Source of the DNA: Natrinema salsiterrestre
GTDB taxonomy: Archaea > Halobacteriota > Halobacteria > Halobacteriales > Natrialbaceae
Direction of reading: 5' to 3'
DNA: 64,000 bases
NCBI RefSeq assembly: GCF_029502005.1
Contig: NZ_JAMQOT010000003.1
Location: forward strand, 357,571 to 421,570
A program made the translations under genes and the position numbers. Below the pieces are notes generated by a model that was given only the letters and a program-made list of their open reading frames with translations, was not told where the DNA came from and searched no databases. Position 1 is the first letter of the stretch, and each line of letters begins with the position of its first letter. This document shows positions 14,760-20,153 of the stretch, piece by piece.

Positions 14760-15421
14760 GGCGGTATGTGATCATTCATCATAAATCCGGAGCGGGTTTC
14801 GTATCGTTGTCTCGGGCTCCAGTACCCGAAATACACCGCTTTTCGCCCCGAACGCTTCGGATCTCGAGATCCAGTCGCGAAACCGAACCGTCGATGTATC
14901 CTGCGACGGAACTATCGCGGTGGGAGAACGTCCCGTCGGGCAGACGCCCCTGAGCGCGGTGATTCGCCACCCGGGTCACACCCCGGCAACTATCTCAACT
15001 CGACGGTGCAGTCCCGTGGAAAGCCCCGTCGTCGGACAACACCGGATTCCAAGCGGTGCGAAGCGTCTCCTCACGGTTCGCTGCGAGTCGGCTTCCGGAA
15101 CGGTGGCTGTCGTCGGTCGACGAACTGACTCGCCTCGCGACTCCGAACGCAGTGACGACGAGACGTTTTGAGAGCAGGATACCGCGGATTCACTCACGCG
15201 GTAAGTCGACGGCGGCATCGATGTGGCCCTGGAGTTCCGAACTGGGAAGCGGGACTGCGTCGGGGTGGGACGCCTCGATGGACTGCAACCCCTCGGCGAT
15301 CGACGCTCGTCCGTACAGATGTTCGTCGTCGCACTCGGTTACGTATCGCTCGATTCAGGCAGCCATCGAAGAGGCGCGTCGGCGATACACCACGCTGCAT
15401 GCGTTTCTCATCTGGATTCGT
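14760..15421. other. Long intergenic region, nothing identified
   Basis: About 660 bp lie between the alcohol dehydrogenase promoter and the end of the 1432-residue gene. The open frames are short, and none shows a recognisable protein or haloarchaeal codon pattern. I see no RNA gene or IS end. Together with the gaps at 19.7 kb and 25.1 kb it marks this stretch as less densely coded than the flanks. Confidence 0.35.
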
Positions 15422-18400
15422 TCACCGATCCTCCGATTCCGGTGAGGTACTGCCGAGCCCGCGGTCAGTATTCGAGGGCGACTCGCCATCGGAAACGGGT
15501 TTGTCGTCACCGCCGTTGTCGAACAGGTCGTTCGCGAGAGACTCGTGGCCCGTTTTTCGGAGACCGTGGTCGATGCGGATCACGAAATCGCCGGGATTCC
15601 TGACGGTGGCCGACGAGAGCGTGTCGGCGGCTTGGGAAACCGTTCGTTCCAGGGCGTTATCGTCCGGGAGCAGGCCCGCGTCGCTCGCGGCCCGGAGAGA
15701 CTCGGCTACGGCCTCAATGCACGCTTCGATCCGTATCCCGGGGCCGTGTCTCTTTGCGCCCTCGACGACTACGTCGGCGTAGAGGCCTTCCAGGAACGTC
15801 GCCGGCTCGTTCACGGACGGCCCCCTCGTGAATTCACGGAGTTCCGAATCGAGTTTCCGACGCCACTCGTCGGCACCGTCCTGAGCTGCGTCGAAGAGGG
15901 CTCGAGCGTACACGCCGGTGACGAATTCGGCCGGACGGTCCGGCACTTCCCTCGTCGCGGCCGCTTCGATCCCGGCACTAACGAGGTCGAACCACTCCTC
16001 CGTTTCCGAAACGTCGGTGTGGGTTCGACCGACCTGTGAGAGCGCCTCGGCATAGATCCGCTCGAAGATGTCTGCCCGCTCGAGGCCGACCCAGTCGAGC
16101 GAACACTCCCCGTCCAGGGCCGCCAGGACCTCGGTCACCCCGAACCGAACTTCCTCGGACCGGGCGTCGGCGGCGAGTGCGAGTGCACCGCCAAACACCG
16201 AGGCCACGTACACGACCGGATGCGGTGGATTGTCCTGGGCTGTCGCAGCCGCCCGGATCTGGGACAGCACTGCATCGACCACCCCTTCGTGTGTCCGTTC
16301 GCCGACGTCCGTCCGGGTCAACACTGCCGCCAAAATCTCGGCATCGATCGACGCGAACGCGTCGAACCAGTCCGTCTCGTCGCGCCCGTCGATGGACTCG
16401 CGACTGGTCCGAAACGACCGGACGAGCACCGTGATCCACTCCTGCGTGCGACTCGATTCCCCGTCAGCTGCCCACTCGACGGCGGCTCCGCCGTAGACCT
16501 CTGCGAGGAACTGAATCGGATCGTCGACCGCATCGGTCGTCGTGGCTCGCGTTTCGATCAGGTCCGTGAGCCCGCCGTACCAGGTGCGCTCCCCTCGTGG
16601 TGTCACTCCGTCGTTCGAATCGGGCCACTCGTCCGAATCGGGATCGAAGCCCCGTACGTGGGTAGACAGCGCCCCGCGGTAGACCTCCGTCAGATACTGC
16701 GTCGTCTCCGCGGTGGACGCATCGGACCCGACTCCCCGAGTCACGGACTCCTCGTACAGTTCCATCCAGTCCTCGAAGCCGAGGGAGTCCTCGAACGCGA
16801 TCGTGTCGCGACCGTAGGGGTACTGACCGACCGCGTCGGGAGAGTCCAACTCGACGTCGCCGAAGGCGGCGAGTCCCGTCGCGTGGAGAGCCGCTCGGCC
16901 GTCTCGCTCGTTTTCGAATCCGTCGGAACCGGCGATCGCATCAGCGAGCCGGTGACACTCGGCGAAGAACGGTTCCGCTCGGTCGAGCTCACCCGACTGG
17001 ACGACGACTCGAACCGTGTGGCCGTACGCCTCGAGGACGTACGTCTCGGGATCGCCGTCGAGTTCTACTGCTGTCGCTGTGTGGCGTACGCTCTGGCCGA
17101 CGGCCTCGAGGAGGGGACCGAACGCCTCGTCCGGACAGCCGTGCTCGAAGACCCACAGCCCGAGCCCTGCGACGTAGAGCTCTGTGAGCAGCGTCCGCCG
17201 ACTGTGCCGATCAGTGACGTCCTGAACTGCCTCCCTGGCTCTGGACTCGATATCGTGGACCCAGACCGACAACTCCTCGGTCGACCGCTCGACGCCTGCG
17301 ACTGCACCGAGCATGGACCCGAAACTGTTCCCGAGGGCGCTCGCCGTGTGGTGATCGTTGGCACTCATCGCGTACTGGCGAACGCGGGAAACGATGGTGG
17401 AGATGCCGCCGTTGGCCGCCTTCGGATCGTCGGCTCGTCGGACGATCTGGCCGACCGCGGCCCCGTAGACGAAGTGGAGCGGGAACTGCCACCCGTCGTC
17501 TACGATCGATGCGTGGAGGGCTTCGTCGACGCACCCGACCGCCCCGTGGTTCACGGCCGACCCGTCCGGCGGCTGAGCGAGCCGTGCCAGTGCGGCCGCG
17601 AACGCTGTCGCAAACGGTTCCAGGTCGCCGCCGACGGATTCCCGACCGGCGAACGGAGCGGCTGTTTCGTTCGTGACCTCGAGAACGCCGCGCGCGACCG
17701 CGTGGACCCACTCGTCAGTCCTCGGGTTCGCCCGTGCGACGGCTGCGATCGCAGTCTCGTAGACCTCGCCCCGGTACAGGAGGGACTCGTCCGAGTCGGC
17801 GGTTCGATTTCGCCCGACGTCGGTCACGAGGTCGTCGATGAACGAGAGCCACTGCTCGGCCGCGGCCGGCCCGTGCGTCGTCGAGATGACGTCGACGGCC
17901 TCGGCGACGACGGTCCCGACGAACTCGCCGTCCAGGGCGTGATCGGGAACGGCCGCGATCGCAGCCAGCGGGCTCTGATCCGTGACCGACTCGACGTCGA
18001 CCGACCGACGAGACGGCGACCGGATCTCGTTCCACCCGATCGCATCGAGCAGGTCGCGAGCGACGGTCGCCGGGTCTCGGTCGATATCGACGGTCGGATC
18101 TGCCAGCGAAAACTCGACGCGGTCGGTCCAGGCCGTCAATTCGTCACAGCCCGCCCGATCGGCGACGTCCTCGAGCCGCTCGCGGTTGGTGTCGTCACAG
18201 ATGAGCACCGCGCCCGCACAACTCCCGTCGCCGATCCACTCGGGGAGTGCCCGAACGCCGTCGTCGCCGTTGACGGCCGCCGGCTCGGCACCGTACGTTG
18301 CGACGACGATCGCGTTCGGCGTCGCCTCGATCCCCGTCCGGATGTGGTCGGGACGAGAGAGATCGGGAAGTGTGACGGTCGTTCCCCAGTCGTCGAGCTC

Positions 18401-19720
18401 CGAGGCGAGGGACGCGGCCAGTCGGCGTTTCCCGCTCGCCCTGGGACCGGAGAGGACGACCAGTCCCCCGTCGAGCGCCTCGAGGAGTTCGTCTCCGTCG
18501 ACGAGCGATCTCCAGTCCCGATTCGTCTCGTCGTCGGTGCCCTCGAGCTCACGAATCGGGTCCGGAAGCTCGCGCTCGACTGCGGCATCGTGTAACGCTT
18601 GCGGGCCGTCCCAGTGCCAGGAGCCGACGAGTGGCGAGGAGCCGTACTCTTCGGGTCCCACCGACATCGTTTCGAACGATGGACCTTCCGAGCTGAGCGC
18701 GTCCACTGCCTGCCCCATCACGTCACGCGCGGCATCGATCACCGACTCTTCGTCGTCGTCCTCGGCGAGTCGGTCGCGGATCAGTGCTCGCGCCGGATCG
18801 GCGGCGAACACGCGGAGGTGATCGATCGTTCCGGGCGGGAGATCCAGAGCGATCTCCAGTGCCTCGGCGGTCGTGGGGGGTGTCCGATACCGCGCGAGGG
18901 GCTCGAACCAGTCTGCGTCGTCTGCCACTCCGACGGCGACGAGCGCGACCGCGGCGAGGACCGCAGGCGATCGTTCGGTAGGGGTTCGACTCGGGAGGCC
19001 ACCGCTCGGGACGAGCGGCGAGACGACGTCCGCAAACGCCTCGCCGAACGGCCCGACCGAGACGTTACAGTCTCCGAACGCTCGCCTGACGTCGCCGGGC
19101 AGCAGTACGTCCGAGCCGTCGTATTTCGAGAGGGAGAGAAACGCTGCCGGCGTGACTGTCGCATCGTACCATCCCAGGTGTTGCTGAACCTCTGGGCCCT
19201 CGAAGTAGTATGGCGGATACCTGGCCCACTCCAGTACGGCCGCTCGCTCGTCGTCTCGTAGTCCGGACGGACTCCGTCGAGTGATGCGCTGTCGGACCTC
19301 GTCGATTGCGGCCGTGGCACCAACCGGCGGCGTTCGGACCGACAAAACGGTGTCGACCTTTTCGATGAATCTCTCGGAGACCCCGTGGTCGCTCCGACAG
19401 AGCCAGTCGAAACTCCGTGGACGGGTGATGATCACTGCACCCCCCGATCTGGTAAACAGCGACTTATCGCCGTACTCGTACGTGTAGGCTGCCAGCGTTC
19501 TGTCGTCGAGGTCGAACACTGCGGATACGAAATCCTCGACGATCACGAGTTCCCGATCGTCGACGGCGGTGACCTCGGGCAGTCGTTCGACTAACTGACC
19601 CAGCGATTGCAGGTGCCGTGACGTTCCGATACCGGGTGCACCGAGGACGAGGGTCACCCCACCCGATTCGACGGCGTCCGCCAGTTCGTCTGGTCTGACC
19701 TCCTGAATGTGAACTGTCAT
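15422..19720 (-). CDS. Giant protein: two degenerate P-loop modules plus helical repeats
   Basis: A 1432-residue acidic, cytoplasmic-looking protein not assigned to a named family. Module 1 (residues 1-130) has TLVLGAPGIGTS at 23-34, a Walker A lacking the Lys, then ELVIVED at 57-63 (Walker B-like) and GAVIITR at 94-100. Module 2 (400-540) has VVLSGPRASGKRR at 421-433, with the Lys but Arg in place of Ser/Thr, and AGAVLICDD at 502-510. From about residue 640 to 1345 there are ~50-residue helical repeats built on an F/Y-x3-V-Y-x2-A-L core. The plan resembles STAND-type sensors with a repeat ligand-binding end. A TATA-like ATTAAG element at 19803-19812 lies upstream. Confidence 0.8.
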   Translation of the reverse strand: MTVHIQEVRPDELADAVESGGVTLVLGAPGIGTSRHLQSLGQLVERLPEVTAVDDRELVIVEDFVSAVFDLDDRTLAAYTYEYGDKSLFTRSGGAVIITRPRSFDWLCRSDHGVSERFIEKVDTVLSVRTPPVGATAAIDEVRQRITRRSPSGLRDDERAAVLEWARYPPYYFEGPEVQQHLGWYDATVTPAAFLSLSKYDGSDVLLPGDVRRAFGDCNVSVGPFGEAFADVVSPLVPSGGLPSRTPTERSPAVLAAVALVAVGVADDADWFEPLARYRTPPTTAEALEIALDLPPGTIDHLRVFAADPARALIRDRLAEDDDEESVIDAARDVMGQAVDALSSEGPSFETMSVGPEEYGSSPLVGSWHWDGPQALHDAAVERELPDPIRELEGTDDETNRDWRSLVDGDELLEALDGGLVVLSGPRASGKRRLAASLASELDDWGTTVTLPDLSRPDHIRTGIEATPNAIVVATYGAEPAAVNGDDGVRALPEWIGDGSCAGAVLICDDTNRERLEDVADRAGCDELTAWTDRVEFSLADPTVDIDRDPATVARDLLDAIGWNEIRSPSRRSVDVESVTDQSPLAAIAAVPDHALDGEFVGTVVAEAVDVISTTHGPAAAEQWLSFIDDLVTDVGRNRTADSDESLLYRGEVYETAIAAVARANPRTDEWVHAVARGVLEVTNETAAPFAGRESVGGDLEPFATAFAAALARLAQPPDGSAVNHGAVGCVDEALHASIVDDGWQFPLHFVYGAAVGQIVRRADDPKAANGGISTIVSRVRQYAMSANDHHTASALGNSFGSMLGAVAGVERSTEELSVWVHDIESRAREAVQDVTDRHSRRTLLTELYVAGLGLWVFEHGCPDEAFGPLLEAVGQSVRHTATAVELDGDPETYVLEAYGHTVRVVVQSGELDRAEPFFAECHRLADAIAGSDGFENERDGRAALHATGLAAFGDVELDSPDAVGQYPYGRDTIAFEDSLGFEDWMELYEESVTRGVGSDASTAETTQYLTEVYRGALSTHVRGFDPDSDEWPDSNDGVTPRGERTWYGGLTDLIETRATTTDAVDDPIQFLAEVYGGAAVEWAADGESSRTQEWITVLVRSFRTSRESIDGRDETDWFDAFASIDAEILAAVLTRTDVGERTHEGVVDAVLSQIRAAATAQDNPPHPVVYVASVFGGALALAADARSEEVRFGVTEVLAALDGECSLDWVGLERADIFERIYAEALSQVGRTHTDVSETEEWFDLVSAGIEAAATREVPDRPAEFVTGVYARALFDAAQDGADEWRRKLDSELREFTRGPSVNEPATFLEGLYADVVVEGAKRHGPGIRIEACIEAVAESLRAASDAGLLPDDNALERTVSQAADTLSSATVRNPGDFVIRIDHGLRKTGHESLANDLFDNGGDDKPVSDGESPSNTDRGLGSTSPESEDR

Positions 19721-20153
19721 ATGTTCGCTCCAACCAACTCCGTCGACGAACGAACTGCAGAGAGCGACAACGGCGGTTGACTACGTTCGAATACATTTTC
19801 ACTTAATATAACGGTTTCTACCGCGAGTAGCACCCGTTGGGGTCGGACGGACGCTCCCGGTCGGAGCTGTCGGTGCGCATCGGTGGTCGGCGACGATGAG
19901 ATCCGTACAGGCTCATCGGGATTCGCCGGTACAATCTCCCTCGGCGTTGTCGTGATACCCGGCAATTCGACACCCCGTTCCACCGTCGTCTTCACAGCTG
20001 ATTTCGTGGTTCGATGTGTTCGGACACCGATGAACGTCCTCAATACGAAGCCGTACTCCTCCGTGTCGCTCGACGACGATGGCGAGTGGATCCTCACCGT
20101 TTTGCTGGGCGGGCCAGTCGTCCGCGACGTGTCCGTCGCCTCGACGGAACGGA
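19721..20153. promoter_or_regulatory. Intergenic region with the promoter of the giant gene
   Basis: This 433-bp region holds an AT-rich minus-strand TATA candidate (GTTATATTAA, 19803-19812). It would give the 1432-residue gene a leader of about 60 nt. No coding sequence is convincing between 19820 and 20153. Confidence 0.4.

Follow-up and report, generated by a model that had tools for sequence, protein, structure and literature searches.

The 64,000-nucleotide stretch of Natrinema salsiterrestre DNA analyzed here (contig NZ_JAMQOT010000003.1, positions 357,571 to 421,570; hereafter, the window) carries on its minus strand a giant gene, the main gene (family c0), whose protein combines two P-loop-like N-terminal modules with a predicted alpha-solenoid (Table 1). 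Open reading frame (ORF) calling recovers this gene, with an ATG start, exactly where an earlier note made from the sequence alone had reported a protein of 1432 amino acids (aa), and the genome holds a single copy. The gene is under purifying selection: the ratio of nonsynonymous to synonymous substitution (Ka/Ks) is about 0.33 (0.31 to 0.34 for the window copy versus four relatives) and stays below 0.45 in every region. No match to it was found in the viral contigs and phages searched, and a profile of the whole family gave no usable match in the PDB. We set aside an antisense ORF of 791 aa (16220-18595, plus strand) as a likely artifact of high G+C content because it is the minus-strand frame that is conserved.

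The N-terminal modules and the helical C-terminal part

Module 2 can be traced to STAND NTPases through a distant haloarchaeal family (loci L038, L075-L079, L180, and L181), whose members of 936 to 1504 aa match the N-terminal half of the main protein (BLAST E values of 2e-23 to 4e-29 for L038), retain an intact GTGKT, and match nSTAND3/nSTAND5 models down to 5e-6. Module 2 of the main family aligns with that of the distant family over 153 columns (hhalign 99.2%, E 7e-20), and the two families together align with eight nSTAND5-type proteins from the same order over 103 columns (96.5%, E 8.5e-10; shuffled and reversed controls reached at most 0.3%), while the main family alone matches this set over 36 columns around the P-loop only (84.5%). 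On these comparisons, which run via distant kin with an intact P-loop, we regard module 2 as a STAND-type NTPase by descent. The nSTAND5-type proteins were used here in place of nSTAND3, the Pfam model of which was rejected as an identifier (it is unspecific, matching each of the 41 genomes as well as 14 controls). Searched directly, module 2 yields only subthreshold AAA_16 and nSTAND3 matches in Pfam and generic P-loop ATPases in a PDB profile search.

The catalytic positions of module 2 are eroded throughout the family. Its Walker A motif, GPRASGKR, lacks the Ser/Thr just as the earlier note described. Of the 23 sequences, 22 read GKR here, one reads GKY, and none has GK[ST]; the P-loop lysine, K431, is invariant. 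The Walker B strand of STAND proteins (VVVEDAVRPE) aligns to AIVVATYGAEP, which has a tyrosine (Tyr476) where the acid would be, unchanged throughout the alignment of the main and distant families; LICDD, which the note had taken for Walker B, aligns instead to LLDARE, the strand that follows Walker B in STAND proteins. Most of the distant kin also possess a GNP (GxP) motif (GNPEI, GNPLV) that falls, together with the segment after it, in an alignment gap in the main family, from which the winged-helix region of the distant kin is missing as well. With the Ser/Thr, the Walker B acid, and the GxP segment lost, module 2 thus reads as a STAND NTPase stripped of the residues that bind Mg and carry out hydrolysis, and hydrolysis itself has probably been lost.

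For module 1, a tree of 23 sequences resolves two clades: that of the window has T, Q, S, G, or M at the Walker A lysine position (the lysine-free GAPGIGTS is present as reported), whereas the sister clade shows the canonical motifs GAP[SC]VGKS and VDD. By this comparison, the lysine was lost in the window's clade, so that the broken Walker A claimed for module 1 holds there but not family-wide; similarly, the claim of a Walker B-like strand in both modules stands for module 1 (VIVEDF) and falls for module 2. Module 1 resembles a P-loop module in its motifs (GAP..GKS, V[DE]DF, and TRPR), and the proline and tryptophan of its PRxxDWL are invariant across the main and distant families. A PDB profile search with module 1 returned nothing significant. 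Homology between modules 1 and 2 was considered, as they are colinear, but is not claimed (hhalign 1.3%).

The distant family supplies the homologues with the same two-module plan whose search the earlier note had proposed. In addition to this plan, it shares with the main family the PRxxDWL-type motif, the tyrosine in place of the module 2 Walker B acid, and, in several members, the repeat core; it differs in its intact module 2 P-loop (G[TI]GK[ST]), its GNP motif, its near-identical tandem repeats, and a mixed state of the module 1 lysine, which is variably lost.

Residues 548 to 1402 are predicted with high confidence to form an all-helical solenoid: the AlphaFold2 (AF2) model of residues 548 to 1432 (14 sequences) contains 36 helices and 0 strands, with a predicted local distance difference test score (pLDDT) of 82.9 and a predicted template modeling score of 0.80. 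The helical part, put at the C-terminal ~700 residues in the earlier note, starts near residue 548 and spans ~850. All four repeat cores quoted there lie at the residues given, each beginning a hairpin helix in the model. The hairpin period is about 43 to 53 residues, and neighboring cores among the four are separated by 44 to 100 residues (one or two hairpins) rather than by the claimed ~43 to 51. A loose regular expression for the core matches residues 561 to 1432 six times (1000 shuffles: mean 0.05, maximum 2), a result that is indicative only, the expression having been written after the quoted cores were seen. Independently, a profile built from the near-identical 50-aa repeats of the distant kin matches the window protein at E 6.7e-6, whereas the best-scoring of 20 shuffles reaches 0.44. 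A fold search with the solenoid returned only generic HEAT/importin-like solenoids at low TM scores, and no family claim is made.

Among the distant kin, one 1504-aa protein (L075:5264-9775, minus strand) joins an intact STAND P-loop to five near-identical tandem 50-aa helical repeats with the core FLANVYSMAI, and similar arrays occur at L077, L078, L179, L180, and L181. Judged from their sequences, these proteins are a candidate rapidly evolving sensor family; by analogy, such near-identical repeats resemble those of STAND sensors under repeat turnover.

Table 1. Features of the main gene and of the partner remnants beside it (window positions)
Feature	Position	Strand	Description	Basis
Main gene (c0)	15422..19720	-	1432 aa; double P-loop-like N terminus plus alpha-solenoid	ORF; 22 aligned near-full-length relatives; Ka/Ks
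Module 1, residues 1-135	19316..19720	-	Compact P-loop-like module	Motif evidence only, from alignments
Module 1 Walker A position GAPGIGTS, residues 27-34	19619..19642	-	Lys lost; GAP[SC]VGKS in sister clade	
VIVEDF, residues 59-64	19529..19546	-	Walker B-like, module 1	Alignment of relatives
TRPRSFDWL, residues 99-107	19400..19426	-	Best-conserved motif of module 1	Alignments
Module 2, residues 401-548	18077..18520	-	Degenerate STAND NTPase domain	hhalign
Module 2 Walker A GPRASGKR, residues 425-432	18425..18448	-	Lys kept, Ser/Thr replaced by Arg	Alignment
AIVVATYGAEP, residues 470-480	18281..18313	-	True Walker B strand of module 2; acid absent, Tyr476 invariant	Profile alignment
LICDD, residues 506-510	18191..18205	-	Walker B of the earlier note; aligns one strand past Walker B	
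Alpha-solenoid, residues 549-1402	15515..18076	-	Predicted helical hairpins	AF2 model
HEAT partner (c1), decayed remnant	15193..15405	-	~73 C-terminal residues left, with an in-frame stop; ~578 codons lost from the start	tblastn E 5e-12
Divergent ~90-aa partner (c2), truncated remnant	20027..20146	+	70% identity	tblastn E 5e-13

Distribution and the partner cassette

The family is patchily distributed. A protein search within the taxonomic family matched 17 of 125 genomes; at class level, a profile search gave matches in 26 of 391 Halobacteria genomes, distant kin included. Among the named holders are Natrinema, Natrialba, Haloarcula, Halovenus, Haloferax mucosum, Halovivax, and Halostagnicola. 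Four records are plasmid copies, megaplasmids among them (Haloferax mediterranei pHME505, N. pallidum, N. thermotolerans, and one unannotated haloarchaeal plasmid). Near-identical copies are spread across families, as in N. gari and two genomes of family f3; the group of N. gari, G250, G362, and Halovenus has branch lengths of <0.07. Truncated, internally deleted, and duplicated copies also exist among the relatives. The main gene thus moves horizontally, often decaying.

Comparison of neighborhoods reveals a recurrent set of partners: a ~655-aa HEAT protein, proteins of ~105 aa, ~90 aa (divergent), and ~400 aa, and TPR-like giants of ~1000 to 1375 aa. The HEAT partner (Pfam HEAT_2, 2.8e-35) lies directly downstream of the main gene in seven loci, in addition to its remnant in the window. 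The ~105-aa gene, which is usually adjacent, occurs in 12 of the 391 genomes, 11 of which also hold the main gene (Fisher test, 5.8e-15), and strong matches to the ~400-aa gene occur in seven genomes, six of them holders (7.7e-8), with genome relatedness uncorrected in both tests. A giant of 1375 aa in Hfx. mediterranei (L092:16280-20407, minus strand), in which ~50-aa TPR-like repeats (FDxxxxHLDRLExLAxxYPD) take up nearly the whole length, adjoins the main gene on pHME505; no relation was detected between the solenoid and this TPR-like partner type (c7). Neither the family libraries nor a limited open-access literature search yielded a description of the set.

In the window itself, only scraps of two partner genes (c1 and c2) are left beside the main gene, whereas its nearest relative (G069) keeps the ~105-aa and ~90-aa genes and has a split HEAT gene. 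The left and right flanks common to both genomes lie 5 kb apart in the window (15193-20146) versus about 46 kb in the relative (G069:C1:1275070-1321638), and the locus is therefore a variable chromosomal region. Within the longer interval, an HmaB-like gene sits by the cassette and an HmaC-like gene at the far end, in the company of metabolic genes; the two are a DUF1156 methylase (L204:1430-4075, minus strand) and a DUF499 protein (L202:5406-8630, minus strand), respectively, at opposite ends. An empty site was sought in other genomes, and none was found. The Mrr-like nuclease and CPBP protease genes, to which the earlier note had linked the main gene, belong to the far flank of this region: they lie 40 kb from the gene in the nearest relative and were not seen near other relatives, making their proximity coincidental. 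Nor did the proposed linkage to defense genes emerge, PADLOC matches being scattered among 138 neighbors with at most four members per family.

Two other settings differ. The N. gari cassette adjoins SUKH-1, Ank-SUFU, and HEAT genes, and that of Halovenus adjoins SUKH and pentapeptide genes. The N. gari genes stand in a row (L031:7756-11501) that is reminiscent of an archaeal polyimmunity locus.

Interpretation and competing explanations

The explanation that we favor, and to which we give about even chances, is that the main protein is a pseudo-STAND recognition scaffold, nucleotide independent or at most nucleotide binding, at the center of a small, mobile haloarchaeal conflict system. A P-loop-like pair that has lost hydrolysis would here be joined to a long, protein-binding solenoid; the solenoid would recognize an incoming protein (viral, or the toxin of a rival) or a partner, and the N-terminal half would assemble, hold, or release the proteins encoded alongside it (the HEAT, ~105-aa, ~90-aa, and ~400-aa proteins and the TPR-like giants). 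A role in innate immunity is plausible given the patchy, mobile, and decaying cassette, the two loci of toxin-immunity type, and the Hma-like genes near the locus in the nearest relative (a DNA methylase and an AAA+ gene similar to those of the Hma defense system).

Several observations weigh against this explanation. Several loci sit among ordinary metabolic genes; the window gene may act alone, its partner genes there being gone; and no effector domain was found in the main protein or its partners. The main protein has no match to PADLOC models up to E 1, none in NCBIfam, and none above threshold in Pfam. Module 1 is a P-loop by motif only, its alignment with STAND P-loops reaching 34.7% over just 31 columns, and the AF2 model of residues 1 to 620 (pLDDT, 34.7) gives no fold for either module. 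Finally, the intact-looking module 1 of the sister clade suggests that some relatives may still bind or hydrolyze nucleotide.

Comparison with described systems shows both shared and differing features. As in nSTAND_NTPase5 and nSTAND3 proteins (PF25199 and PF20720), with which module 2 aligns, an NTPase is followed by a long helical repeat region, and the predicted solenoid corresponds to the C-terminal, superstructure-forming repeats of STAND NTPases. Unlike them, the main protein lacks the Mg-coordinating Ser/Thr, the Walker B acid, and the GxP/winged-helix segment, has a second P-loop-like module in front, and stays below Pfam gathering scores. The STAND-like plan proposed in the earlier note accordingly survives for module 2 and the NTPase-plus-superhelix layout, but its label of ATPase does not, the catalytic residues being gone family-wide from module 2 and, in the window's clade, from module 1. 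A precedent for inactive STAND components is given by the iSTAND ternary systems (Kaur et al. 2020, PMC7159879), putative conflict systems whose conserved core is a catalytically inactive STAND domain and whose defining partners are MoxR and vWA. The main protein resembles that core in its catalytic losses; it is of a different lineage and is without effector-associated domains or TIR/caspase fusions. Neither MoxR nor vWA occurs among the window neighbors or the 25 commonest Pfam families of the 138 scanned neighbors (one vWA-like fragment, recognized by reading the sequence, lies at L068), and since no MoxR-vWA couple was seen, we do not claim membership in these systems. What appears to be new is a STAND-derived protein, hence of a known kind, in an undescribed partner set.

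A wider version, which we hold to be possible yet doubtful, would have a double-P-loop pseudo-STAND protein at the center of a mobile conflict system in which sensing and signaling need no ATP hydrolysis. They might instead use a composite site formed by the module 2 P-loop lysine and the acid and arginine of module 1 (VIVEDF and TRPR), and all known partners would be repeat proteins or small unknown ones. An active antiviral STAND sensor, which would bind and slowly hydrolyze ATP and oligomerize on recognition like Avs/NLR proteins, with a partner or an unrecognized domain as effector, would explain the STAND descent of module 2, the invariance of K431, the canonical GAPSVGKS and VDD of the sister clade, and the NTPase-superhelix plan. 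We nevertheless consider it unlikely: every relative has lost both the Ser/Thr and the Walker B acid from module 2, the module 1 lysine is gone in the window's clade, the GxP/winged-helix region of the distant kin is missing, and there is neither a recognizable effector domain nor a PADLOC match. Just as improbable is a polyimmunity protein, i.e., a giant repeat protein that, with HEAT, TPR, SUKH, and SUFU neighbors, neutralizes the proteinaceous toxins of rival archaea. SUKH, SUFU, ankyrin, and HEAT are classical toxin immunity families (PMC3482391), and the N. gari and Halovenus neighborhoods, in which such genes and pentapeptide genes surround the cassette, resemble the polyimmunity loci of polymorphic toxin systems; the partners, too, are mostly interaction repeats. 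However, only 2 of about 21 loci fit, and their copies of the main gene are closely related; no toxin gene was found nearby, the window and most loci lack the immunity array, and the giant protein belongs to no described immunity family.

Two explanations dispense with conflict altogether. An ordinary regulatory or trafficking scaffold, whose patchiness would reflect niche, would account for the many loci among metabolic genes and for the (only generic) resemblance of the solenoid to importin/HEAT scaffolds. Its absence from >90% of the sampled Halobacteria, together with plasmid copies, cross-family transfer, pseudogenized copies, and a co-mobile partner set, makes such housekeeping less probable still. 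That the locus is a nonfunctional relic, cassette debris in which the big ORF happens to be undisrupted, seems very unlikely: both partner genes in the window are reduced to fragments, and fragments and internally deleted copies occur elsewhere, but the 1432-codon frame is intact, Ka/Ks is low in all regions, and the module motifs are conserved.

If the pseudo-STAND scaffold is borne out, haloarchaea would exchange among themselves, widely, a conflict system not yet described, with a STAND-type protein at its center that has abandoned the ATPase switch. Nature would thereby have tested which parts an NLR/STAND sensor can do without. The sister clade, with its module 1 P-loop intact, and the distant family, with module 2 intact, would let matched clades that keep a given catalytic feature be compared with clades that lack it, allowing direct tests of the losses in genetically tractable haloarchaea, such as the standard laboratory species Haloferax mediterranei with its copy on pHME505.

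Among nSTAND5-type proteins, one of 1453 aa (L175:1479-5840, minus strand) appears from its sequence to join a Ser/Thr protein kinase domain to the NTPase; several of its relatives in the same order (L171-L174, L176, and L178) have winged-helix-like N termini instead of the kinase domain.

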